DNA of 26,475 nucleotides from a virus, in IMG/VR virus record IMGVR_UViG_3300007539_000169, positions 1-26,475 of that record. The stretch is one strand, 5' to 3'. Positions 9,210 to 25,593 of the stretch are shown here, in pieces. Made by a program: the position numbers and the translations under genes. The notes below the pieces were generated by a model. That model was given only the letters and a program-made list of their open reading frames with translations. It was not told where the DNA came from and did not search any database. Numbering within the stretch: the stretch's first letter is position 1; every line of letters starts with the position of its first letter.

Positions 9210-10141
9210 CTTATCATATCACAATATACAATAACATATTTGATACAGATACCAGCAAAACATTAGACATATCAACGCTAGAAAAGTTTGAGAAGTTTCT
9301 GTTCAATCTCTCAAGAGTGCCCAACACCAAACCAAAGGCGCAACTGCTGTCGTCAGCAGTTTATGAGGAAGGTAAAACTCGAGCAAACTCTAATGTGGTT
9401 GAATGGTCTCAATGGTGCGCTGTTGATGTTGATGATATTACGATTCCTGGAGATAAAAACCTTTCAGAGTATCTGGAGCGTATCATCGGGAAGCACCGTT
9501 ATATTTGTTACTCAACAGCAAGTTCCTCTCCTGAGCAACCTAAGTTTCGTTTGGTGTTCCCGCTGACATCTACAGTACCTGCTGAGAAAATCTCTCACTT
9601 CTGGTTTGCTCTTAACAAAGAACTCAAGGAACTGGGTGACCCGCAAACAAAAGATGCCTCGCGCATGTTCTACATACCTGCTGATTATGAAGGTGCGTTC
9701 AATTTCTTTTTCAAGAACGATGTGGATACCATTATGGATCCTGCTGTTATCATGCAGAAACACGAGTTCATCAAAAAGACAGGCAACAGTTTTCTGGATA
9801 GTCTACCCGAAGGATTACGAGAAGAGATTATACAACATCGTAAAGACCAGATGACCAATCGAAGCATTACTTGGTCAGGATACCGAGATTGCCCCTTCTT
9901 CCCTAAAAAATTAGCAAACGAATACCGAGCAATTACTGGTACAGGTTGGTATCATAAAATGTATCAGATCATGGTGGCCATTGCAGGTAACGCCATCAAA
10001 GAAGAATATCCTATTACTGCCAATGAAATTGCTACTCTATGTAAAGAACTTGATATAGAGACAGGAAATTGGTATGCTAATAGGCCGTTCGAACTTGAAG
10101 CAACCAGCGCAATTGAATACGTTTATAGAAATTCCATTTAA
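9206..10141 (+). CDS. PrimPol-like (archaeo-eukaryotic primase type) putative primase
   Basis: This is a 311-aa protein with features of the archaeo-eukaryotic primase/PrimPol fold. It has a hydrophobic-DxD motif (WCAVDVDD, Asp74/Asp76/Asp77), then YICYSTASSSPEQPKFRLVFPL, and later DASRMFYIP. These are the usual three blocks for metal binding, the active-site strand and nucleotide contact. A C-terminal helical part (from about residue 200) could be a primase-associated domain. No T4-like gp61 primase is visible here, so this gene may make the primers for gp41/gp43; that is inference from position between genes 43 and uvsX. It starts with GTG in a GTGA overlap, with GGGGA at 9196-9200 as ribosome site. 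Confidence 0.6.
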   Translation: MTYHITIYNNIFDTDTSKTLDISTLEKFEKFLFNLSRVPNTKPKAQLLSSAVYEEGKTRANSNVVEWSQWCAVDVDDITIPGDKNLSEYLERIIGKHRYICYSTASSSPEQPKFRLVFPLTSTVPAEKISHFWFALNKELKELGDPQTKDASRMFYIPADYEGAFNFFFKNDVDTIMDPAVIMQKHEFIKKTGNSFLDSLPEGLREEIIQHRKDQMTNRSITWSGYRDCPFFPKKLANEYRAITGTGWYHKMYQIMVAIAGNAIKEEYPITANEIATLCKELDIETGNWYANRPFELEATSAIEYVYRNSI

Positions 10142-10170
10142 GGGCAGACAAGAGTTGAAATTGTTGGTTA

Positions 10171-10178
10171 TATAAATA
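10171..10178 (+). promoter_or_regulatory. T4-type late promoter for the HNH endonuclease gene
   Basis: This is an exact TATAAATA about 58 bases upstream of the endonuclease ATG. No -35-like hexamer lies at 16-18 bp. Late promoters of their own are typical of T4 free-standing homing endonuclease genes placed among early genes. Confidence 0.8.
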
Positions 10179-10183
10179 ATAGC

Positions 10184-10207
10184 ACTCCGGCGACTCCGGC
10201 AAGTAAA
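10184..10207 (+). promoter_or_regulatory. leader element with doubled ACTCCGGC
   Basis: ACTCCGGC occurs twice, at 10184-10191 and 10193-10200. The CCGG cores can pair with each other around a CGACT loop, with ACT/AGT extending the stem beyond a bulge. The second copy continues as TCCGGCAAGTA, like the hsp20 leader. It probably shapes translation or stability of the late RNA. Confidence 0.45.
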
Positions 10208-10235
10208 ACAGTCAACAACCAACAAAGGAAAACAA

Positions 10236-10910
10236 ATGAATTATCAAATCATTCACGATGATATTATTCATCGCGCCAAAAGTAGAACCCCACACAAAAA
10301 TCTTTATTATGAAAACCACCATATAACGCCTAAGTGCGAAGGAGGTTTATATGAAGGTTTTACTGTCAAACTAACTCATAAAGAACACAGACTTGTGCAC
10401 CTTCTAAGGTATAAAATGACTGGGGTTAAAGGAAACCTCAGTGCATACCTTTTAATGGGTAAGTCGAATCCCCACACATCTCCATTCAAGAGGCGAGAAG
10501 ATGCTTCTTTCGCAGCAAAAATGAGTCATAAGAAACGAAAAGAAAACGATCCTGACGAGTATCAGAATTCGCAAAGCAGAGTCGGTTCCATCGGTGGAAA
10601 AGCGTGTCATAAAAACGAATTGGGTATGTTTTCTATGACAGAAGAAAAAAAGAAAGAAGCGCGAAAGAGAGGAGGCGAAAGTACTGCTAGCAAAAAACTT
10701 GGCATGTTTTCTGATGAATATAGAAAAGAACACTCTAGAAAGATGCAAAAGGTTGTTTTAATAGACGGAATAGAGTATGATAGTTGTACTCTTGCTGCAA
10801 AATCTCTTAATGTGACTCGAGCAACAATAAGCAATTGGATAAACAAAGGCAAAGCAGTTGTTTTGTCAGAAGGTGAAATAAGGAGAAAAATGTATGTCAT
10901 TAATGAATAA
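10236..10910 (+). CDS. free-standing HNH homing endonuclease
   Basis: This is a 224-aa DNA endonuclease of the HNH type found in T4-like phages, which spreads its own gene by cutting uninfected alleles. The nuclease core is YYENHHITPKCEGG with His28-His29, then KLTHKEHRLVH with His51 and His55; the central Asn of HNH appears replaced (Phe42-Thr43 in EGFTV). Two NUMOD3-like DNA-binding repeats follow (ELGMFS and KLGMFS, each before a basic helix). A C-terminal NUMOD1/helix-turn-helix module comes last (IDGIEYDSCTLAAKSLNV, then SNWINKGK). It has its own late promoter and leader. Its last 17 nt overlap the uvsX start, so the uvsX ribosome site lies inside it. Confidence 0.9.
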   Translation: MNYQIIHDDIIHRAKSRTPHKNLYYENHHITPKCEGGLYEGFTVKLTHKEHRLVHLLRYKMTGVKGNLSAYLLMGKSNPHTSPFKRREDASFAAKMSHKKRKENDPDEYQNSQSRVGSIGGKACHKNELGMFSMTEEKKKEARKRGGESTASKKLGMFSDEYRKEHSRKMQKVVLIDGIEYDSCTLAAKSLNVTRATISNWINKGKAVVLSEGEIRRKMYVINE

Positions 10911-11943
10911 ATTGAAAAAAACATCAACTGTGAAGTCTTCACAGGTTGTTTCGGAATCCGATCATTTTAGAACTAAAGATTTGGTCACCACACCAGTGCC
11001 AGCCCTTAATGTAGCATTGAGCGGTTCTTTGGATGGAGGCATTTCTTGCGGATTGACTGTGTTGGCGGGTCCATCAAAAATGTATAAAAGTAATATGTCC
11101 TTGGTCCTTGCCAAAGCGTATATGGATAAATATCCTGAATCTGTCTGTTTGCTCTATGACACCGAGTTTGGAATAACAACACAATATCTAGAAAATTTTG
11201 ATATTGATACTGATCGTGTCTTACACACACCGATTGAACATGTTGAACAATTAAAATTTGATATCATTAGACAATTAGATTCTATGGAGAAGGGCGATCG
11301 AGTGTTTATTCTCATAGACTCTGTCGGTAATTTGGCGTCTAAGAAAGAACTTGAAGACGCATTGGACGAAAAGTCTGTTGCCGATATGACCCGCGCAAAA
11401 GCCTTGAAGGGTTTGTTCCGAATGGTAACACCATATCTGAACACCAAAGACATCCCTTTGTTATGTGTTAACCACACATACAAGGAAATTGGTATGTATC
11501 CGAAAGACATAATGTCTGGTGGCACAGGAATTTACTATTCGGCGAATCAGGTTTTCTTTATTGGCCGTAGACAGTTAAAAGATGGTGCAGATGTTTCTGG
11601 ATATGAGTTCATCATAAAGGTGGAGAAGTCTAGGTTTGTTAAAGAAAACTCAAAGATACCAATTACTGTGACGTTTTCTGGCGGGCTCGACAAGTACAGC
11701 GGTTTGTTTGATATGGCAGTAGCTGGCGGGTTTATAAATTCCCCCACAAAGGGTTTCTATCAGCTTATGGACCTTGAAACGGGAGAAATGAAAGAAAAGA
11801 GAATAAGAAAGACAGACATAACCAAAACTGGTTACTTTGACGATTTACTACAGTATGACCCATTTAAAGATTTTGTCAAATCAATCTACGTTCTAGATTC
11901 TGGTACCAAAATAGAAGTCGTTCCAGAAGAGGAAATTGAATGA
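10894..11943 (+). CDS. uvsX: UvsX RecA-like recombinase
   Basis: This is the strand-exchange protein that forms filaments on single-stranded DNA and drives recombination-dependent replication. The 349-aa product (T4: 391 aa) shows Walker A GPSKMYKSN at residues 59-67, matching the unusual T4 UvsX form, an acidic catalytic strand LLYDTEFG, Walker B VFILIDSVGN, and the later VNHTYKEIG and SGGTGIYYSANQVF blocks. The C-terminal tail is short and acidic (VPEEEIE). Start at 10894, with AGGAG at 10881-10885; an ATG at 10903 is the alternative. Its start overlaps the end of the endonuclease gene, and its stop overlaps the next ATG. Confidence 0.96.
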   Translation: MSLMNKLKKTSTVKSSQVVSESDHFRTKDLVTTPVPALNVALSGSLDGGISCGLTVLAGPSKMYKSNMSLVLAKAYMDKYPESVCLLYDTEFGITTQYLENFDIDTDRVLHTPIEHVEQLKFDIIRQLDSMEKGDRVFILIDSVGNLASKKELEDALDEKSVADMTRAKALKGLFRMVTPYLNTKDIPLLCVNHTYKEIGMYPKDIMSGGTGIYYSANQVFFIGRRQLKDGADVSGYEFIIKVEKSRFVKENSKIPITVTFSGGLDKYSGLFDMAVAGGFINSPTKGFYQLMDLETGEMKEKRIRKTDITKTGYFDDLLQYDPFKDFVKSIYVLDSGTKIEVVPEEEIE

Positions 11944-12215
11944 AGTTGATTGAGAACGAAGATTACCAACTGGTGCCTCTTAATGATAATGATTGGGGCA
12001 TTCGATTCTTAAAAGGCGAGTTTGTTGAAACGGTTGTATTTGGAATTGTTTTGTCTTATAATGAACATACGCAGAATTTAAATTTTGCGTTTGAAATTGA
12101 AAACACGCCAGACGGTGACTTGACTCCAGACAACACAGAACTACAACGTTGTGTTGGAGATGTGTTGGGTTCTATACTTGAAGATGATGATGGTGCAATA
12201 GTAAATGAGCGATAG
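11940..12215 (+). CDS. small conserved protein between uvsX and gene 41
   Basis: This 91-aa acidic protein has the pattern ENEDYQLVPLNDNDWGIRFLKGEFVETVV and a C-terminal DLTPDNTELQR. Similar short proteins follow uvsX in marine T4-like phages, as I recall; no function is known. There is no membrane segment or catalytic motif. The start is in an ATGA overlap with uvsX, and the stop lies 11 nt inside gene 41, so it is translationally embedded between recombinase and helicase. Its context suggests a replication accessory role, which is inference only. Confidence 0.75.
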   Translation: MKLIENEDYQLVPLNDNDWGIRFLKGEFVETVVFGIVLSYNEHTQNLNFAFEIENTPDGDLTPDNTELQRCVGDVLGSILEDDDGAIVNER

Positions 12216-13593
12216 CATACAGAAACTTGTTCTGAATAATTTGTTGGTAAACGACGAGTATACGCGAAAGGTTATTCCATATATCAACAAAGAATACTTC
12301 ACTGGCGTCTACAAAGACCTGTTCCTTATGGTTGGCAAGTATGTTGCCAAATACAATGAACTGCCAAGTCTGGAAGCATTCAAGATTGAGATTGAAAAGT
12401 CCAACCTTCGCGAGAGCGAGCTCGCAGAAGTTTCCAACTTGCTTCCTGAGTTGTTCAAGGAAAAGGAACAAAACATAAAGTGGTTGACCGAAGAAACAGA
12501 ACACTGGTGTCAAGATCGTTCTGCTTATAATGCCATCATGGAATCAATCAAGATCTATGATGGTAAGCATGATTCTCTTTCAAGGCAGGCAATTCCTGAT
12601 CTGCTAACAAAGGCGCTCAGCGTTTCCTTTGACCGCAATGTTGGTCACGACTATATTGAAAACGTTGAGGAACGATACAGTTTCTATCATGAGAAGCATC
12701 CGCGTGTTCCGTTTGATCTAGATTCCTTCAACGAAATCACAAAGGGCGGGTTTGCGTTTAAGTCCCTTAATGTTGTAATGGCAGGACCAGGTGTTGGTAA
12801 GTCTGCGTTCATGTGTCACCATTCTGCTGCTTGTTTATCGCAAGGTCAGAATGTTCTTTACATTACTTTAGAGATGGCAGAGGAACGCATTGCTGAACGT
12901 ATTGACGCCAACCTGATGGATGTTAATATTGATGACCTGTATGAGTTGCCCAAGAACACATACTTTGAGAAGATGGATAAAATTGCCAAGAAAACACAAG
13001 GTAAACTTATCATCAAAGAATATCCAACTTCTCAGGCGCATGTCAATCATTTTCGAGCATTGCTGAACGAACTCAAACTCAAGAAAGAGTTTATCCCTGA
13101 CATCATTTTCATTGATTACCTAAATATTTGTGCCTCTTCTCGAATTAAAAGCATGGGCGGTGCAGTAAACTCATACACCTATGTTAAATCAATTGCTGAA
13201 GAAGTTCGTGGTCTTGCTGTCGAATTCGATTTACCAATTGTGTCAGCAACCCAAATAAACCGAAGCGGTTACACCAGTTCTGATCCAGGAATGGAAGATA
13301 CTGCAGAAAGTTTTGGGTTGCCTGCCACTGCTGATTTCCTTGGCGTGTTCGTGACCAACGATGAGTTGGAAGAACTAGGGCAACTGATGTTTATTCAGTT
13401 GAAGAACCGTTATGCTGATCTCAACAAAAAGAAGCGTTTTGTTTTGGGCGTTAATAAAGCAAAAATGCAATTCTATGATGTTGACGAGAGTATGACACCA
13501 AAGGGAATAGAAGAAGATACTGGTCCTGTGTTTGACAATTCAGATTCCGGATCAAGAATCTCTTCTGAAAGATTTGGAGATATACAAGTATGA
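12205..13593 (+). CDS. 41: gp41 replicative DNA helicase (DnaB type)
   Basis: This is the hexameric 5'-3' helicase that unwinds DNA at the phage fork. The 462-aa product (T4: 475 aa) has an N-terminal helical domain (residues 1-150), Walker A GPGVGKS at 194-200, the motif YITLEMAEERIAERI typical of DnaB-type RecA folds, Walker B IIFIDYLNIC with Asp304, and SATQINRSGYTSSD. A charged C-terminal tail follows. The start overlaps the previous gene by 11 nt and has no strong ribosome site, so it depends on coupling. The terminal TGA overlaps the next ATG. Confidence 0.96.
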   Translation: MSDSIQKLVLNNLLVNDEYTRKVIPYINKEYFTGVYKDLFLMVGKYVAKYNELPSLEAFKIEIEKSNLRESELAEVSNLLPELFKEKEQNIKWLTEETEHWCQDRSAYNAIMESIKIYDGKHDSLSRQAIPDLLTKALSVSFDRNVGHDYIENVEERYSFYHEKHPRVPFDLDSFNEITKGGFAFKSLNVVMAGPGVGKSAFMCHHSAACLSQGQNVLYITLEMAEERIAERIDANLMDVNIDDLYELPKNTYFEKMDKIAKKTQGKLIIKEYPTSQAHVNHFRALLNELKLKKEFIPDIIFIDYLNICASSRIKSMGGAVNSYTYVKSIAEEVRGLAVEFDLPIVSATQINRSGYTSSDPGMEDTAESFGLPATADFLGVFVTNDELEELGQLMFIQLKNRYADLNKKKRFVLGVNKAKMQFYDVDESMTPKGIEEDTGPVFDNSDSGSRISSERFGDIQV

Positions 13594-13772
13594 CACCTTT
13601 TTGGCAAACAGTGTTGACGCTGGCTTGTATGTATTTTGCGCATTCATGGGGTGTGCGCAGAGGGTATGTGGTTGGGTTTGGTGATGGAAGAGAGTTCGGA
13701 AAGATGGATGCCATCATAGAACAGCGTCTTGACGAGTTAGAACTTGAGGAAGAAGATGATCATGACAAATAA
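13590..13772 (+). CDS. small membrane-anchored acidic protein
   Basis: This 60-aa protein has one N-terminal hydrophobic helix (about residues 5-28, TVLTLACMYFAHSWGVRRGY) and an acidic C-terminus (DELELEEEDDHDK). It starts in an ATGA overlap with gene 41, with GGAGA at 13576-13580. Short membrane proteins in this position are common in marine T4-like phages. Its end overlaps the hydrolase start by 17 nt. The function is not recognised. Confidence 0.7.
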   Translation: MTPFWQTVLTLACMYFAHSWGVRRGYVVGFGDGREFGKMDAIIEQRLDELELEEEDDHDK

Positions 13773-14403
13773 CTCCTTTTCTATTATATTATTTTTGACT
13801 GTCGCATTTTTTGCAATAAACGGCGGGTTAATTGCATTCCTTGTTTTAGAAGATAGAGAAACTAAACCAGCGGAAGTTGTTGTCGTTCCTGAACAACCAA
13901 AGATTGTAGAAACAGTCGAACCGCCTGTGCCTGATGTTGATGCGAGAGAGGTTCAATGCCTTGCCTTGAACATCTGGTTTGAGTCAAGAGGCACCAGCAA
14001 TAGAGATAAATTAGCAGTGGCGCACGTCACGAAAAATAGAGTCAAGCATAAAGATTATCCAAACAATGTTTGCTCAGTTGTCTTCCAAGGAATACATCGT
14101 CTGAACCCTAATACGGGAAAGGTTTATCCAGTGCGCAATATGTGTCAGTTCAGTTGGTATTGCGACGGCAAAACAGACGAAATTAAACTAACAGACAATC
14201 AAGGCAGAACCATTCATAACAATGTTATAATTTGGGAAGAATGTCAAACTCTTGCTTTTCAAGTCCTTACCGGACAAAGCGAAGACCCTACCAAGGGCGC
14301 GACACATTACCTGAACTCCAAACTTGTGAAGCGAATGCCAAAATGGACCTATGAGTACACCATGGTTCACGAAACCGATGGTCATCAATTCTATAGAATG
14401 TAA
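13756..14403 (+). CDS. SleB-type cell wall hydrolase with N-terminal membrane anchor
   Basis: This is a 215-aa peptidoglycan hydrolase of the SleB/Hydrolase_2 family. An N-terminal hydrophobic segment (about residues 6-30) followed by a Pro/Val/Glu-rich linker suggests a signal-anchor or export signal. The catalytic domain starts near residue 60: CLALNIWFESRG, with Glu76 in the conserved E-x-R-G, then AVAHVTKNRV, VCSVVFQ, CQFSW, ATHYLN, and the final WTYEYTMVHETDGHQFYR that closes this family. The ATG at 13756 is chosen because GAGGA at 13746-13750 lies five bases upstream; an in-frame TTG lies at 13744 and an ATG at 13762. It lies among replication genes, so it may act in lysis or superinfection rather than in the tail. 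Confidence 0.88.
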   Translation: MIMTNNSFSIILFLTVAFFAINGGLIAFLVLEDRETKPAEVVVVPEQPKIVETVEPPVPDVDAREVQCLALNIWFESRGTSNRDKLAVAHVTKNRVKHKDYPNNVCSVVFQGIHRLNPNTGKVYPVRNMCQFSWYCDGKTDEIKLTDNQGRTIHNNVIIWEECQTLAFQVLTGQSEDPTKGATHYLNSKLVKRMPKWTYEYTMVHETDGHQFYRM

Positions 14404-14594
14404 TGAATGTAATGGCAACAAAAAAGAAACGACATAAATTTCAAAAATCTTCCTACCCCACTCTAAAAGCGGTCTATAGAGAAATACTTGAAATTGGGGT
14501 AGAAAAAGTAGTAGAATTTAATGGTTACGAAATAATAACTGACCGTGGCAAATACGGACTGTATGATAGCAAGGTAACAATATATGATGATTAA
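14403..14594 (+). CDS. small basic hypothetical protein
   Basis: This is a 63-aa protein with a basic N-terminus (KKKRHKF) and the pattern NGYEIITDRGKYGLYDSKVTIYD, which looks like a small beta-rich fold. The ATG at 14403 overlaps the hydrolase stop; the ATG at 14412 (MATKKKRH) is equally plausible, because the sequence around both repeats AATGTAATG. There is no clear ribosome site. The function is unknown; the basic head could bind nucleic acid. Confidence 0.6.
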   Translation: MNVMATKKKRHKFQKSSYPTLKAVYREILEIGVEKVVEFNGYEIITDRGKYGLYDSKVTIYDD

Positions 14595-14748
14595 ACTTTG
14601 GACAATTTGGAAGTACGCACTGGGCGGTTTCTCTGACGACAAAACAGAACCCTATGATGATTATGTTGCGTTGTTACGAACAGTGATAGTTGGTGTGAAC
14701 TTCTTAACTTGTTTTTTTATTATGGCAAATGTAATACACAATTGGTGA
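14587..14748 (+). CDS. 53-aa membrane protein of a marine T4-like family
   Basis: This short frame overlaps the previous stop (ATG at 14587, with another at 14584). The product begins MIKLWTIWKYALGGFSDDK, continues TEPYDDYVALLRTVIVGVNFL, and ends in a hydrophobic helix and VIHNW. The motif of Trp-Lys-Tyr-Ala-Leu-Gly with a following aromatic/acidic turn and one membrane helix is one I recall from small cyanophage proteins. The function is unknown. Confidence 0.65.
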   Translation: MIKLWTIWKYALGGFSDDKTEPYDDYVALLRTVIVGVNFLTCFFIMANVIHNW

Positions 14749-14751
14749 TTA

Positions 14752-14946
14752 ATGATGGATAGAGAAAAGGTTAATGAGTTTATTGGATTCATGATTGTTC
14801 TGACGACTATGCTGACTGGAATGTTTGGACTTCCGGTTGCAGCATACTACATTGTGCAACACCAATCCAGCGCTGCATTTGAATTGGCAACCGCATGTCT
14901 GCTGATTTCTGGTTTCTTTTGGTACGCTGTTTTAAGCAAAAAATAG
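14752..14946 (+). CDS. two-helix membrane protein, first of a tandem related pair
   Basis: This 64-aa protein has two hydrophobic helices (about residues 10-34 and 42-60). The segment GLPVAAYYIVQHQSSAAFEL aligns with ALPFGGFYIVNNYPNSAVFEL in the next gene, so the two probably arose by duplication. Two ATGs (14752 and 14755) are possible. No motif reveals a function. Confidence 0.65.
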   Translation: MMDREKVNEFIGFMIVLTTMLTGMFGLPVAAYYIVQHQSSAAFELATACLLISGFFWYAVLSKK

Positions 14947-14976
14947 AGGCATTCATCATTGCAGATTGAGGTTGAA

Positions 14977-15225
14977 ATGAAAGAGAAAATTAAAAATTGG
15001 TTAATTTCAAGCGGTTTCTTTGCAATTGCATTAATTGCGTTACCGTTTGGTGGGTTCTATATCGTCAACAACTATCCTAATTCCGCAGTATTTGAGTTAG
15101 GCGGTGTTATGATGTTTCTTGGCGTTTGTTCATGGATCTTGGTTTTTATTGCAATTTATGATATGATATTCTATAAAAAAGAAATGGAGAACCATAGAGA
15201 GGGTTGTGATGAGTGGGATAAATAA
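14977..15225 (+). CDS. two-helix membrane protein, second of a tandem related pair
   Basis: This 82-aa protein has two hydrophobic helices and a charged C-terminal tail (KKEMENHREGCDEWDK). It shares the LP...YIV...SA.FEL pattern with the preceding gene. The ATG at 14977 is supported by GAGG at 14968-14971; an in-frame TTG at 14959 is not. The last 17 nt overlap the start of the TET-like dioxygenase gene. The function is unknown; it may associate with the inner membrane. Confidence 0.65.
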   Translation: MKEKIKNWLISSGFFAIALIALPFGGFYIVNNYPNSAVFELGGVMMFLGVCSWILVFIAIYDMIFYKKEMENHREGCDEWDK

Positions 15226-16690
15226 TATCAAACCCGAAGAATGGGATAAGGCATTTTTTAACTCAGCGGAAAAGAATATGAAAGGTACGGTTGACGAAAG
15301 TAAATATGATGTAGTAATGCAAGATGGTGTTAAAGTTATCACTGCGCAGTTCCATAAGAACTGCGAACACCAACTTGGAACCTACATGGAAGACACCGCC
15401 TATGATTTTGTGATTGAAGAAGATTGCGACTTCTATGCGCCGCCAGACTGCGATGTAAACTTGATGGCAGACTGTAACAAAGACTGTCAAAATTGCTTTA
15501 CAGAGGACAACATCATTTTCAAACTACGCAAGGGTGCGTTCACTGAAGAAGAACAACTTGGTGCTTATGAAGGTTTGATTGGTGCGGCGCAACCAACTCA
15601 AAATCGGGGCGTTGCTGCTGGACCCAAAACAGGGAAGCTTAACAACCGCGACTGGGTTACTGATGAACAGATAGAAATCATGGATCATTTTATCCGTCCA
15701 ACATCATCATTGTTTGAAGATGAAGATCCTATTGCTGAGATTATCAGAAAGCATAGAGGTAAAGATCAATCATCCAGAGGATTTGTTTGGTTGCGTAATA
15801 AAATCACTGATGCTGGTTATGCATACGAATCTTTCTTTGAATCAAAGATTCGAGAGTGGAGAGGCATGCCAGAATCAATGGCAAAGGCAGACGCCAGAAT
15901 CATTAAAGAAACTTTCGTTTCTGACACATCCTATGCCAACCAGGTGAACTCTGGACTTGCTGGATTCTTCGACCGTTATCCGAGAATTCCATATGGTCGT
16001 GCTACTTCTTACACAGAGAAACATTTTGAGACGTATGAGAAGTGTTATCCGTTCATGCGTAAACTTGCTAATAAGTTTAGCGAACTCTTACCAAGAAGAT
16101 TCGCATACCAAAACGCAAGAGCAGCAGAACTTGACCCACGATTCCGAGTTGCTGGAGAAGATACTCCATTCACAACTATCACTGTCAATAAAAACTTCCG
16201 TACAGCAGCGCACAGGGACGCAGGTGATCTTCACGAAGGATTCTCCAACCTTACTGTTGTTGCAAAAGAAAAGGATTGGGAAGGCGGTTACTTGGTGTTG
16301 CCAGAATTTAGAGTTGCCATTAACATACGTCCAGGGGACTTGCTCCTGATCAACAACCATGGCGGTATTCATGGTAACACGGAACTGCTTCCGCCGAAAG
16401 GTAAAACGTTGGAAGATATGGAACGTATTTCTCTGGTCTGTTACTTCCGTGACAAAATGTCAGAACTTGGTTCTTGGGAATATGAAGCAGTAAGACGCCA
16501 GTTTGTTGATGACCGCATGCATAATAAAGAACATCCGAACCAGAGACCATTATGGAATGGTGTTAGTCCAGGAATGTGGGAATCCCAGGAATGGTACGAT
16601 TACTTGGAAAGTAAACTTGGTCGTAAGGTTGTTCAACAATATCATCCCAATGCATATAAGATTGTATCTTCACTTGAGGAGTTTTTCTGA
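15209..16690 (+). CDS. TET/JBP-family 2-oxoglutarate/Fe(II) dioxygenase
   Basis: Enzymes of this family oxidise the methyl group of 5-methylcytosine or thymine in DNA; phage members make 5-hydroxymethylcytosine. The 493-aa product has the double-stranded beta-helix core at about residues 320-415. Metal ligands are the HxD of AHRDAGD (His335, Asp337) and His388 in GIHGNTEL; Arg406 in ERISLVCYFR would bind 2-oxoglutarate. Between them lie NLTVVAKEKDWEGGYLVLPE and the IRPGDLLLIN strand usual for TET/JBP proteins. Six cysteines lie near the N-terminus (52, 73, 81, 89, 93, 96), possibly a zinc-binding domain. The ATG at 15209 is chosen because of GAGAGGG at 15197-15203. A glycosyltransferase follows downstream. 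No DNA methyltransferase is in the window. Confidence 0.85.
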   Translation: MSGINNIKPEEWDKAFFNSAEKNMKGTVDESKYDVVMQDGVKVITAQFHKNCEHQLGTYMEDTAYDFVIEEDCDFYAPPDCDVNLMADCNKDCQNCFTEDNIIFKLRKGAFTEEEQLGAYEGLIGAAQPTQNRGVAAGPKTGKLNNRDWVTDEQIEIMDHFIRPTSSLFEDEDPIAEIIRKHRGKDQSSRGFVWLRNKITDAGYAYESFFESKIREWRGMPESMAKADARIIKETFVSDTSYANQVNSGLAGFFDRYPRIPYGRATSYTEKHFETYEKCYPFMRKLANKFSELLPRRFAYQNARAAELDPRFRVAGEDTPFTTITVNKNFRTAAHRDAGDLHEGFSNLTVVAKEKDWEGGYLVLPEFRVAINIRPGDLLLINNHGGIHGNTELLPPKGKTLEDMERISLVCYFRDKMSELGSWEYEAVRRQFVDDRMHNKEHPNQRPLWNGVSPGMWESQEWYDYLESKLGRKVVQQYHPNAYKIVSSLEEFF

Positions 16691-16851
16691 TGACGCCACT
16701 TCAAATTAGAGACTTGGTTATATACTCCCCTAGAATGTCGACAATAAAACAACCTGTTGGTTGTTATGTTATCAAAAAAGAGTTACAATATACATTTACT
16801 TACAGACCTAATTGGTTACATAGAATAATGACTAGATTTTTCCTTGGTTAG
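16690..16851 (+). CDS. 53-aa conserved-looking phage protein
   Basis: This is a short frame with an ATGA overlap onto the dioxygenase stop. The product begins MTPLQIRDLVIYS, is rich in aromatic and basic residues, and ends RPNWLHRIMTRFFLG, a C-terminal pattern I associate with small proteins that recur in tailed phages. There is no membrane helix and no known function. Its position between the dioxygenase and glycosyltransferase genes may be meaningful. Confidence 0.55.
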   Translation: MTPLQIRDLVIYSPRMSTIKQPVGCYVIKKELQYTFTYRPNWLHRIMTRFFLG

Positions 16852-16868
16852 GAATGGAGAGACTTTGA

Positions 16869-17690
16869 ATGAATGAAATTGAATACAGTATTGCGATACC
16901 ATCGTATAAAAGACATAACACTATCTTAGAGAAAACTCTTAAAGTTCTTGAGTCATATAACATTGACCCGCAGAAAATTAAAGTGTTTGTTAATGCTGAA
17001 GAACCAGGTGAATTTGAAAACTACACCGAAACTTTTTCGCATCATGCGTATGCTAATCAAATTGAGATCGTGAAAGGTGTACCGACTATCGGTGCTCAAA
17101 GAAACTTCATTGAAAAGTGGTATCCTGAAGGCACACGAGTGATGTGCTTTGATGATGACATCGAAGAAGTACAACGCAAAGAAGGCGAACAAAACCTTGT
17201 TAGAGTTGACGACCTTGAAGAAGAAGTTATCTTTCGAGGGTTCTCCGAATGCGAAGATAACAACGCTAAAACTTTTGGAATCTATGCTGCTGCGAACGCA
17301 TACTTTATGAAGCACCGAACCTATACTAAACTGTCTTACATCATTGCAAGTATGTATGGGTTTATCGCTGATCATGATCCATACCTTAACAGGGTGACTT
17401 CTCATGGCGAGGATTATGAGTATAGTTTAAGGCAATACCGTAAGCATGGTGTTGTTGTTCGCTTGGATGATATCACTGTCAAGTCCAACTACTATAAAGA
17501 AGAAGGTGGATTGCAAGAGTTCAGAACAGAGAAACTTATCCATGATTCTATTTCTTGGATCGCCAAAGAATTCTCTGATCTTTGTACGATGTATATCCGT
17601 AAATCAACGGGGCATGCTGAACTGAGGTTCAGGGACACCAGCAACGGCAGATACCAAAAAGCAGAGTCGACCCTGGAAAACTTCTTTTAA
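16869..17690 (+). CDS. TET-associated glycosyltransferase (GT-A fold)
   Basis: This is a 273-aa nucleotide-sugar-dependent transferase. The N-terminus SIAIPSYKRHNTI is the GT-A strand and loop that starts the nucleotide-binding fold, and VMCFDDDIEEV carries the DxD metal site (Asp95-Asp97). KGVPTIGAQRNFI lies between them. SHGEDYEYSLRQYRKHG supplies a likely catalytic acidic region. It follows the TET-like oxygenase, the arrangement described for phage TET-associated glycosyltransferases that add sugar to 5-hydroxymethylcytosine in DNA. GGAG at 16856-16859 precedes the ATG. The sugar and exact target are not readable from sequence. It could instead glycosylate a protein or cell-surface target, but the context argues for DNA. 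Confidence 0.8.
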   Translation: MNEIEYSIAIPSYKRHNTILEKTLKVLESYNIDPQKIKVFVNAEEPGEFENYTETFSHHAYANQIEIVKGVPTIGAQRNFIEKWYPEGTRVMCFDDDIEEVQRKEGEQNLVRVDDLEEEVIFRGFSECEDNNAKTFGIYAAANAYFMKHRTYTKLSYIIASMYGFIADHDPYLNRVTSHGEDYEYSLRQYRKHGVVVRLDDITVKSNYYKEEGGLQEFRTEKLIHDSISWIAKEFSDLCTMYIRKSTGHAELRFRDTSNGRYQKAESTLENFF

Positions 17691-17710
17691 ATCAAAGGTT
17701 TGCAAAAAGG

Positions 17711-17739
17711 TTGCTTTTTCTCTTTGAGTGAGATACAAT
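17711..17739 (+). promoter_or_regulatory. sigma70-like early promoter for the DUF262 gene
   Basis: TTGCTT (17711-17716), a 17-bp spacer and TACAAT (17734-17739). It resembles the three promoters at 19319, 21622 and 25750 in the -35 hexamer, the preceding GG and the exact spacer, but lacks their TCAATAACTTA upstream box. Transcription would start near 17746. Confidence 0.7.
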
Positions 17740-17746
17740 TCTGGTT

Positions 17747-17783
17747 GTAACTTGATGTTACGGATTAATAGCGCCTCGGGCGC
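17747..17783 (+). promoter_or_regulatory. two hairpins in the DUF262 mRNA leader
   Basis: GTAAC/GTTAC (17747-17751 with 17757-17761, TTGAT loop) and GCGCC/GGCGC (17771-17775 with 17779-17783, TCG loop) lie between the predicted transcription start and the ribosome site at 17796-17800. No T-run follows, so these are more likely leader structures than a terminator. Confidence 0.45.
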
Positions 17784-17808
17784 ACCACTCATTAAAGGAA
17801 CCTATATT

Positions 17809-19251
17809 ATGAATTCTGTATTCGCACCAAAACTAAAGTACACTTCTTCTGAATCTACGGTTCAGGAATTTTCCAGCAATCTCTCAGAACAAGGCGGATT
17901 TGCTAAAATTAACCCGAACCCCATAGGCCAAAGACCTCCGGTCCAAAAGGGTTTTAATAAGTCCAGAGAAATTATCGAAACAATGTTGCGCGGTATTTCT
18001 TGCGGGACGATTACCCTGAGGGATATTTCTGAAGACGAAGCTTCCCAAGTTTTTTACCCAGGGCAGAAATACCATATCATTGACGGCGGTCACCGTGGTC
18101 GAGCGATTCGTGACTTTGTCAAAGGAAAGTTCGATATTAAACTTGGCGGACAGTCCTTCTATTTTCAACAACTTGATGATAATGTCCAAGAATACTTTTT
18201 GGGTATTAAAATCAATTTAATCGCTTACGTTTGCTCCAACCAAGAAGCGCAGATGATCTTCAAGGCAGTTAATACTGTTACTCCAGTTAATGATATGGAG
18301 TCAATTATGTATAACGACACTTCGATGGTTGCTAAACACATTCGATCTCGAACTTCTTATTACCACGAATATCAAAACGAAGTCCATCCTTTGTTTGAAA
18401 CTAAAATGTATAGAGGCGATATCAAACCAGTTCATTGGGAATCTGATGTGAACCCGCGTCGCCTTTGGGATGAGTTCGTGGCAATCTGCTTTGCTAAGGT
18501 TATCGGTAGAGGTAACGCCGAGGCAGGTTATTCGGTTATTGAAGAAATGGTTAATACTGATTTGCCTATTAGTTCTGCCGACTGTAAGAAGGTTGATAAG
18601 ATTCTGAACGACGTTCTTAAAATCAAAAGAGCATCAGGTAACAAGTTTAATAAAGATAAGTTCGCTGCCGCTCAAGCTGTGTTGTTCGAATTATTAGATC
18701 TATCGCCAGAGTTTGTAATTACTGACCATAATGCCTTCGGTAAAGAATTTCTTAGAGCGCATTCAAATTTGACTGGTAATTCTTCCAGTCGTTATGATGA
18801 TGTGTTTGAAATTTACATCAAAGGTTTCGATAAGAAAAGAAATAAAAAAGTATACGACACAGAAAAAACTAATGCCAAAAAGTTTGCTCGTCGTGCTATT
18901 AAAAACTTCGCTAATCCTTGGCAGCAACGCAAGGTTGCTGCAATGTATCTTGAAGAAATGAAAGATGTCATTAAGGAACACGTTATTCTTCGCGATAAAA
19001 GCAGATCTATCACAAGGAAGGAACGCGAAGAACTGTTAGCGCAGCAAGGTTTTGTTTGTGCCATCGACGGATTGGATCTCTCCCTAGACGAATCTGTGTT
19101 TGGACATGACATATCTTGGAGCGAAGCGGATATCCGCGATGGGAAGACGCTGAAAGGTCAGGTGGTCCGCGCAACGCATAATTCCGCCATGGGTACCATT
19201 ACCCTCGACGAATACCGCTCGGTGCTTGCTGCACGCCAGGCAGCGCCCTAA
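17809..19251 (+). CDS. DUF262 (GmrSD/ParB-like) protein with degenerate HNH C-terminus
   Basis: This 480-aa protein is related to DUF262 proteins, which combine a ParB-like NTPase/nuclease domain with an HNH domain and include GmrSD, a nuclease that cleaves glycosylated-hydroxymethylcytosine DNA. Seen here are NPIGQRPPVQKG followed by a helix, the core motif HIIDGGHRGRAIRDFV (family form DGQQR), then AVNTVTPVND, SRTSYYHEY and NPRRLWDEFVA. A C-terminal segment, FGHDISWSEAD to VRATHNSAMGT, is HNH-like but retains a single cysteine. The ATG at 17809 has AGGAA at 17796-17800; upstream codons in frame lie inside the promoter. Adjacent to the TET/glycosyltransferase genes, it may act on modified DNA; that is inference. 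Confidence 0.7.
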   Translation: MNSVFAPKLKYTSSESTVQEFSSNLSEQGGFAKINPNPIGQRPPVQKGFNKSREIIETMLRGISCGTITLRDISEDEASQVFYPGQKYHIIDGGHRGRAIRDFVKGKFDIKLGGQSFYFQQLDDNVQEYFLGIKINLIAYVCSNQEAQMIFKAVNTVTPVNDMESIMYNDTSMVAKHIRSRTSYYHEYQNEVHPLFETKMYRGDIKPVHWESDVNPRRLWDEFVAICFAKVIGRGNAEAGYSVIEEMVNTDLPISSADCKKVDKILNDVLKIKRASGNKFNKDKFAAAQAVLFELLDLSPEFVITDHNAFGKEFLRAHSNLTGNSSSRYDDVFEIYIKGFDKKRNKKVYDTEKTNAKKFARRAIKNFANPWQQRKVAAMYLEEMKDVIKEHVILRDKSRSITRKEREELLAQQGFVCAIDGLDLSLDESVFGHDISWSEADIRDGKTLKGQVVRATHNSAMGTITLDEYRSVLAARQAAP

Positions 19252-23966: not shown

Positions 23967-24190
23967 ACATAGATAAACATGCACTAAAAGAGTCAGTCAG
24001 CGATACTGTTATCGCCACGCCGCTGAGTCTTGCGATAAACTTCGTGCTGATTAACGTTGCTTTTTATTTCCAATTTGGACCAGTAACCACCACGCTGTTT
24101 ATCACTAGTGTCATGTTTGCCTTTGCCATTGTTCGCAAATACTATGTAAGAATTCATTTTAAGAAAAGGTTTGAGAATGTTAAATCCTGA
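23963..24190 (+). CDS. small two-helix membrane protein
   Basis: This 75-aa protein has two hydrophobic helices (about residues 20-37 and 42-58) joined by a short turn and a basic C-terminus (RKYYVRIHFKKRF). The layout, with ESVSDTVIATPLSLAINF first and AFAIVRKYYVR late, recalls small phage membrane proteins of the DUF7220 type; that match is tentative. It overlaps the genes on both sides. A role at the inner membrane is likely; nothing more can be said. Confidence 0.65.
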   Translation: MNIDKHALKESVSDTVIATPLSLAINFVLINVAFYFQFGPVTTTLFITSVMFAFAIVRKYYVRIHFKKRFENVKS

Positions 24191-25172
24191 TTTAAGGAGA
24201 GTCGCGGAAAAGGTTTATTTTACCGGAAACAGTGTTGTTGACCTGCGGACTGATGTTGTTACAATAAGTTCTGGGTGTCAGGAAGCGTTTAATATGTTTT
24301 CTAATATCCCTCAATCCAGCGAAGCGCAACGAATGATTGATGGTCTGTTCGCGCAACAGATGCAACAGAATTTTGGGTTAGAGTTTGTTTGCCTTGTAGA
24401 CAAACCATATACCGCGTTATCCTGTGCAGTACCGAAAAATATGACTATTCACTATTCTCCTCTTGAGTTTGATGAATATGATTTCATTGACTATCATGCT
24501 ACAGAAGAAAGGATTAAAGATTTTTCAGAATGCGGCGGCGGCAATGCGATTTATATAGACAATTCGAGTTATCCCAGGCAGATTGACTGGAATATCATTT
24601 ATAATATTGCTTCTAAAGTGAACTTGAAAGTTATTGCCAATATTGGTAACACAGCAGGTCAAATTTTGACTGGTCTCAATTTCAGTCCAGAATCATATGC
24701 TGATATTATTATTGGTAGCACCGCCGGAACAATGGGCGGTATGCAAACAACCTTTGTCTTATCAAACGAACCATTGACACCAACGGTGGACATTTTACCT
24801 GCTGTCACCGCAGCGAACGTGCAGGCAGTTTACGAACTACACCCATCAACTGGCGCAAAAGATAAAATACAATGGCCAATAAAAATGCTTACCAGGAAAA
24901 TGGCAGACATTCTTATTAGTGAGGGAATCGAACTGTGCACTAGCGGCACACATCAAAACTTCTTAACGATTCCCCGTGACCCAGACACGATTGGTTTTCT
25001 TTCAAAACTCGAGAAGAAAAACATAAAAGTCAGTACCAATAGGAATTACATTATAATTGATTCAACCTTTGGCGTTAAGACAGGACGCTCTGAGGAGTGG
25101 TTTGAAAAGGTTGCATATGATATTGCAGATATAATTAATGATCACAAAAGAGGAAATGCTAATGGCAGTTAA
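24177..25172 (+). CDS. SHMT-like fold protein lacking the PLP-binding lysine
   Basis: This 331-aa protein resembles serine hydroxymethyltransferase (a fold-type I PLP enzyme) in its central domain. The segment from Asp175 (DIIIGSTAGTMGGMQTTFVL) aligns without gaps to the SHMT active-site segment that normally contains THKTLRGP. Here Gly184 replaces the Schiff-base lysine and Ala183 the neighbouring His. Upstream, NIGNTAG replaces DMAHISG, so the Asp that pairs with the pyridine nitrogen and its His are both Asn. The protein is also shorter than SHMT (about 415 aa). It is probably not a working SHMT; it may bind another ligand or partner. The ATG at 24177 is supported by AAAGG at 24165-24169. 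The assignment is from remembered family motifs. Confidence 0.6.
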   Translation: MLNPDLRRVAEKVYFTGNSVVDLRTDVVTISSGCQEAFNMFSNIPQSSEAQRMIDGLFAQQMQQNFGLEFVCLVDKPYTALSCAVPKNMTIHYSPLEFDEYDFIDYHATEERIKDFSECGGGNAIYIDNSSYPRQIDWNIIYNIASKVNLKVIANIGNTAGQILTGLNFSPESYADIIIGSTAGTMGGMQTTFVLSNEPLTPTVDILPAVTAANVQAVYELHPSTGAKDKIQWPIKMLTRKMADILISEGIELCTSGTHQNFLTIPRDPDTIGFLSKLEKKNIKVSTNRNYIIIDSTFGVKTGRSEEWFEKVAYDIADIINDHKRGNANGS

Positions 25173-25593
25173 ATCAGGAAAGGTATGGGGCACAACCGAA
25201 CTTATCGCAAGCAATTCAATGTTTGAGTTTCATCGTCTGGAATTCAAACGTAATTCTTGTTGCTCAATCCACACGCACCAAACAAAGTTAAACGGGTTCT
25301 TTGTTGAGTCAGGTCGAATGATGATTGAGGTTTGGCCGCAGGCATCTTTTAATGGGGATATCCTTGGCGACCCCGACAAGACGTTCCTGACCGCAGGCGA
25401 TTACTTTGAGGTTGAACCAGGTTTGTTCCACCGCTTCACTGGGATAGAGTCTGGAGTCGCCTTTGAAATCTACTGGTCTGAGTATTTCTCAGAAGATATC
25501 ATGCGGGTGACCGAGGGGACTCGCTGGGAAGAGGTCGACCCCGAGAGAGCGGAATCCACCCCTGAGAACAACCTAAATCATGACGGGGAATAG
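25162..25593 (+). CDS. cupin-fold protein
   Basis: This is a 143-aa single-domain cupin. The first conserved motif is SIHTHQTKLNGFFVESGRM, with two metal-binding His (the usual Glu replaced by Asn or shifted). The second is DYFEVEPGLFHRFTG, with the third His. An N-terminal KVWGTTELIASN and an acidic tail complete it. Similar cupins occur in marine T4-like phages. Small cupins can be isomerases, epimerases or dioxygenases; the substrate is not readable. The ATG at 25162 is chosen because AGGA lies at 25151-25154; it overlaps the upstream gene by 11 nt. It ends before a structured gap and an early promoter. Confidence 0.78.
   Translation: MAVKSGKVWGTTELIASNSMFEFHRLEFKRNSCCSIHTHQTKLNGFFVESGRMMIEVWPQASFNGDILGDPDKTFLTAGDYFEVEPGLFHRFTGIESGVAFEIYWSEYFSEDIMRVTEGTRWEEVDPERAESTPENNLNHDGE

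Follow-up and report, generated by a model that had tools for sequence, protein, structure and literature searches.

Which base of its genome a phage would decorate with a TET/JBP-family dioxygenase and an adjoining glycosyltransferase is the question raised by the stretch of DNA analysed here (the window), i.e., a 26,475-base IMG/VR fragment of an incomplete viral genome. A first-pass annotation had placed both genes within a T4-like replication module, regarded them as unusual beside such genes, and proposed that they modify cytosine in replicated DNA. The setting was borne out by the gp46, gp45, gp44, gp62, RegA, gp43, UvsX and gp41 families present in the window, and both the unusual pairing and post-replicative DNA modification were supported. 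However, cytosine as the modified base is poorly supported, because the same dioxygenase in related phages is operonic with thymine-hypermodification enzymes (a ViI-type kinase and an amino acid:DNA transferase, ADDT) and because no C5-cytosine methyltransferase (C5-MTase) was found in them. Most likely, the pair would put sugars on thymine instead: we assign a probability of roughly 0.7 to a post-replicative thymine-modification cassette in which the dioxygenase (TET) yields 5-hydroxymethyl-dU (5hmdU) and the TET-associated glycosyltransferase (TAGT) glycosylates it, in a base-J-like manner (Table 1).

Table 1. Features of the window, with the grounds for their assignment and their proposed roles.
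Feature	Position	Strand	Grounds	Proposed role
TET/JBP-family Fe(II)/2-oxoglutarate dioxygenase, 493 aa	15209..16690	+	Pfam PF12851, phrog_24024, ligands, AF2 fold	Putative thymine-DNA hydroxylase (T to 5hmdU); substrate suggested by operon partners in relatives
TET-associated glycosyltransferase (TAGT), GT-A type, 273 aa	16869..17690	+	PF20691, phrog_842, DDD 95-97	Putative glycosylation of 5hmdU in DNA; occupies the place of the kinase/ADDT cassette
480-aa protein	17809..19251	+	Next gene after TAGT; cluster c58	Possible third cassette member
Homing-endonuclease-like ORF	10236..10910		phrog_655 2e-20; directly before uvsX	
SHMT-like PLP enzyme	24171..25172		PF00464 6e-9	
Cupin, following the SHMT-like gene	25138..25593			

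The dioxygenase gene starts with the ATG at 15209 (a GTG at 15206 is also possible), and its product matched the Pfam Tet_JBP family at E=6e-24 (84.6 bits, cut-off 34.9) and its PHROG family at 6e-162, next to a TauD match of merely 0.022 that fell under the Pfam cut-off. The HxD motif, His388 and Arg406 named in the first-pass annotation were found at these positions, the iron ligands H335, D337 and H388 and the 2-oxoglutarate-binding R406 being invariant across 41 aligned relatives. Moreover, the AF2 model (pLDDT 83.6) displayed a TET-type double-stranded beta-helix upon structural alignment (Z-scores of 20.4 with TET2, 19.1 with CMD1 and 17.9 with NgTet1), and NgTet1 was its best Foldseek match (1.6e-8). 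Since these are its nearest folds, the enzyme was grouped with nucleic-acid oxygenases and not with the prolyl hydroxylases that had been considered as an alternative. Single-sequence searches of solved structures returned no credible relative of either the dioxygenase or the glycosyltransferase.

Reading the substrate from the catalytic pocket was also attempted. The residue three positions beyond the metal-binding Asp (D340) is either D or N throughout the TETs compared, apart from an S in that of phage C48C1; it is Asn in TET2 and, as we take it, Asp in NgTet1, so this pocket residue next to the metal cannot separate T from C. The nearest solved TETs are structures with 5mC, 5hmC, 5fC or 6mA DNA.

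The glycosyltransferase matched the Pfam TAGT family at 2.3e-15 (57.5 bits, cut-off 27.5) and its PHROG family at 1.7e-15, so that both profile searches proposed in the first pass found their family. Its DDD site was invariant in 14 aligned sequences, and the previously noted gap of 178 nt to the TET gene was confirmed, which is looser than the 4-nt overlap seen in relatives. TAGT proteins are not base-specific, as a TAGT of T6-like phages is thought to add the second glucose to glucosyl-hmC (PMC13390438). Regarding the sugar donor, no obvious candidate gene was found in the window. In relatives, the TAGT gene is accompanied by a glucose-1-phosphate thymidylyltransferase gene (S-CBWM1), an NTP-transferase gene with a weak phosphotransferase match (DLP6), or an NAD epimerase gene (several contigs).

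The protein encoded after TAGT, which the first-pass annotation had overlooked, has HNH-like motifs at its C terminus and a DGGHR motif (GmrSD_N/ParB-like) at its N terminus, and is possibly GmrSD/ParB-like. Its cluster was encountered only in loci with TAGT or with an epimerase and UDP-galactopyranose mutase, and in 0 of 48 kinase/ADDT loci. The GmrSD-like reading was not borne out by its relative at L010:12539-13861, which matched PF03235 at merely 0.0078, hhalign comparison with the ParB-like partners of other TETs yielded nothing, a scan of viral sequences found no further relatives, and the AF2 model (pLDDT 42) was unusable. Elsewhere in the window, the SHMT-like PLP enzyme had no cluster partner among the related loci, while the cupin recurs in 10 of them, with either cassette type.

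The genetic context of the dioxygenase was examined in 79 IMG/VR loci with the same TET family (45-100% identity over the best segment) and in the complete isolates DLP6 (L080), Cr30 (L081), C48C1 (L082) and S-CBWM1. All genes around TET were clustered, and cassette genes were counted within 6 kb of it in a set of 84 loci. At least one thymidine-hypermodification cassette gene was present in 48 of these 84, i.e., a GATase (PF13522), a GNAT acetyltransferase, an ADDT (PF18724) or a P-loop kinase (PF18751). All 121 adjacent gene pairs around TET were on the same strand, 120 of them with gaps of at most 30 nt, and the typical spacing of ADDT(-4)TET(-4)kinase indicates translational coupling. When run on phages M6 and ViI, the kinase-family profile gave M6 gp54 (3e-5) and Vi01_061c/orf67 (2e-4) as best matches, at the level of remote homology, whereas the ADDT-family profile recovered Vi01_199/orf247 of ViI at 1e-41. 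We take orf67 and gp54 to be 5hmdU kinases, as Lee et al. reportedly described in 2018. The ViI kinase gene adjoins thyA, which presumably provides the 5hmdU of that phage, whereas the kinase gene of the window's relatives adjoins TET. Given this position of the kinase, and given that no hydroxymethylase was found outside Cr30, the simplest reading is that TET would supply 5hmdU from thymine in DNA.

Several of these genes carry misleading names in GenBank (KU682439, KF301602, MG450654, NC_007809, NC_015296, NC_023701): members of the TET family appear as SNF2 DNA repair protein, the TET of mycobacteriophage Acadian as queuine tRNA-ribosyltransferase, and kinase homologues as terminase small subunit.

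In the window the cassette has been exchanged. Whereas the related locus L002 reads gp46, GATase, GNAT, ADDT, TET, kinase, CobT-like, CobS-like, the order in the window is TET, TAGT, c58, CobT-like, CobS-like, with TAGT at the cassette spot; neither kinase nor ADDT was found in its 26 kb, whereas most relatives have both in one operon with TET. In 20 loci TAGT is found close to TET, frequently with a 4-nt overlap, and only one locus combines it with the cassette (Fisher p=5e-9, for loci that are non-independent). On the TET tree both states interleave, at least six switches being forced by well-supported branches, and, aside from the near-identical fragment L001, the TETs closest to the window's own among those with known context (L002 and L003) both have the kinase cassette. 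A conserved TET whose downstream partners are interchangeable most probably retains a single product; if this is 5hmdU, that of TAGT would be O-glycosyl-5hmdU, of the base J type.

Further variants were encountered among the relatives. Cr30 (9998-18891) has the only locus that unites TET, ADDT, kinase and TAGT; an inositol-1-phosphate synthase gene lies near this locus, and a thymidylate-synthase gene is located elsewhere in the Cr30 genome. An extra gene in the kinase cassettes of 20 loci (cluster c23, e.g., L005:12057-12932) has a weak amidoligase match (PF12224 0.0087), which suggests that the attached amino acid is tailored further. Finally, in L021-L024, L052 and C48C1 (11365-13397), TET is followed by a gene of cluster c54 (phrog_14998) and a UDP-galactopyranose mutase gene (PF03275 1e-52 in L023), and an NAD epimerase gene is also found in the former contigs. 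Epimerase and mutase together are predicted to form a third branch, putting galactofuranose on DNA.

Alternatively, TET might oxidise 5mC to 5hmC for glycosylation by TAGT, with the 5mC supplied by an unseen C5-MTase of the phage or, possibly, of the host. The TET fold with its likeness to TET2 and NgTet1 fits this view, as do the glucosyl-hmC glucosyltransferases included among TAGT proteins and in PHROG 842. The first-pass annotation had rightly noted that the window holds no cytosine methyltransferase, and had placed the 5mC donor elsewhere in the genome. However, a search for PF00145 found none in 70 related records (66 IMG/VR contigs and the four complete isolates; 20 long records including these isolates, and 50 further ones), while control genomes were positive in 10 to 13 of 14 cases; for the window phage itself this absence is indirect, drawn from its relatives and from the window fragment. 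Methylation by the host at a few motifs would yield merely sparse modification. Since a C5-MTase is almost missing from other phage TET clades as well (two control scans found it on one of 36 TET contigs, i.e., L111, which speaks for the cytosine route, and not in Altadena or HTVC112P), its absence carries less weight than the genes sharing an operon with TETs of this family, which belong to thymidine hypermodification. T-free (C-containing) palindromes are avoided in the TET group (observed/expected 0.61-0.68) but not in hmC-containing T4 (1.06), which is consistent with unprotected C; this evidence is weak, as S-PM2 and HTVC008M, phages with unrelated pathways, avoid them alike. Taken together, modification of cytosine is unlikely. 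A PF00303 thymidylate-synthase-like hydroxymethylase, in turn, was found in none of 16 IMG/VR records and in Cr30 alone of the four isolates, while ThyX was present in 11 of 21 records. With ThyX found in part of the records, PF00145 in none and PF00303 in Cr30 alone, the related phages appear to make ordinary thymidylate, and neither 5mC nor a hydroxymethylated nucleotide. As to DLP6, which has both TET and TAGT, the 21 kb of it analysed as L080 hold 0 GGCC sites against 59 expected, and the paper on this phage reports tests with 18 restriction enzymes. A search for published nucleoside analyses of members of this TET group found none.

Less probable still is that TET makes 5hmdU on which TAGT does not act, be it that free 5hmdU is the final product, that TAGT has another acceptor, or that another enzyme finishes the modification. 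The loose 178-nt spacing in the window and the incompleteness of the genome leave some room for this, but the proximity of TAGT to TET in 20 loci, its frequent overlap and its swapping with the kinase cassette argue against it, as do the sugar-nucleotide genes adjoining TAGT in S-CBWM1, DLP6 and the epimerase-bearing relatives. Least probable of all would be a target other than DNA pyrimidines, such as RNA, 6mA or protein. While 2-oxoglutarate oxygenases are diverse and the structure of Coprinopsis CcTet was determined with 6mA DNA, the Tet_JBP match is well above its cut-off, the fold is of the TET type, and the gene is coupled to the DNA-modifying ADDT, kinase and TAGT genes.

On the favoured thymine reading, no methyltransferase would be needed, since thymine already bears the 5-methyl group. 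The TET/JBP enzyme would hydroxylate this group in replicated phage DNA to give 5hmdU, like JBP1/2 in trypanosomes, thereby substituting for the dUMP hydroxymethylase that acts on nucleotides in ViI and phages like it. In the window, TAGT would then add a sugar to the 5hmdU hydroxyl to form a base-J-like O-glycosyl-5hmdU, whereas in relatives the 5hmdU kinase and ADDT would act on the same 5hmdU. The product may protect the DNA from restriction.

A close parallel in the proposed order of steps is the base J pathway of kinetoplastids, in which JBP1/2, of the same Tet_JBP family, hydroxylate thymine in DNA to 5hmU and a separate transferase (JGT) performs the O-glycosylation. The gene complement of the window fits this pathway, except that it belongs to a phage and that its glycosyltransferase is a TAGT; moreover, base J marks chromatin, whereas the window's modification is expected to protect the genome. 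A cytosine version of such a system was reportedly shown by Burke et al. in 2021, with C5-MT, TET and GT producing 5hmC hypermodification in metagenomic phages; it likewise pairs a TET with a glycosyltransferase after replication, but no C5-MTase was found in the related records searched here. Phage cassettes containing TET had reportedly been predicted by Iyer et al. in 2013. T4 also combines its replication genes with a glycosylated DNA base, but makes hmdCMP before replication with gp42, whereas the window group, except for Cr30, yielded no PF00303 homologue. Phages ViI and M6 modify thymidine through 5hmdU, and up to 2019 no phage had been reported to contain glucosylated 5hmdU (PMC6449724). 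Their pathway is likewise post-replicative on 5hmdU, and relatives of the window's TET carry homologues of orf67/gp54 and orf247; in the window group, however, 5hmdU is proposed to arise from TET acting on DNA and not from a dUMP hydroxymethylase, and TAGT replaces kinase and ADDT in the window. TET-like proteins accompanied by a 5hmU-DNA-kinase homologue occur in Acadian as well, in the order ParB-TET-TAGT-x-kinase with a kinase of the same family, and in Rhodococcus phage Tonitrus, whose Tet-like, aGPT-PPlase2 and 5hmU kinase genes were read as thymidine hypermodification (PMC11955845). Both differ from the window in phage type, in a ParB-like first gene and in a distant TET (3e-6 with the family profile for Acadian).

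What is new is that, within a T4-like lineage, the same TET is joined in some members to a sugar branch and in others to an amino acid branch of the ViI type. In our view the odds are slightly better than even that base J, or a sugar variant close to it, is formed in the DNA of this lineage by means of TET/JBP and TAGT, the same hydroxylase feeding interchangeable cassettes (sugar, amino acid, possibly galactofuranose). If the thymine reading is true, phage TETs of this family would be thymine hydroxylases, providing a route to 5hmdU after replication without remodelling of the nucleotide pool, and it could no longer be assumed that a TET in a phage means 5hmC. Cr30, DLP6 and Acadian would be isolates in which this reading is testable, and the enzymes would be candidates for writing glycosylated thymine in DNA. 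The window would then encode a phage equivalent of base J synthesis, within a modular system where one hydroxylase supplies several alternative decorations.
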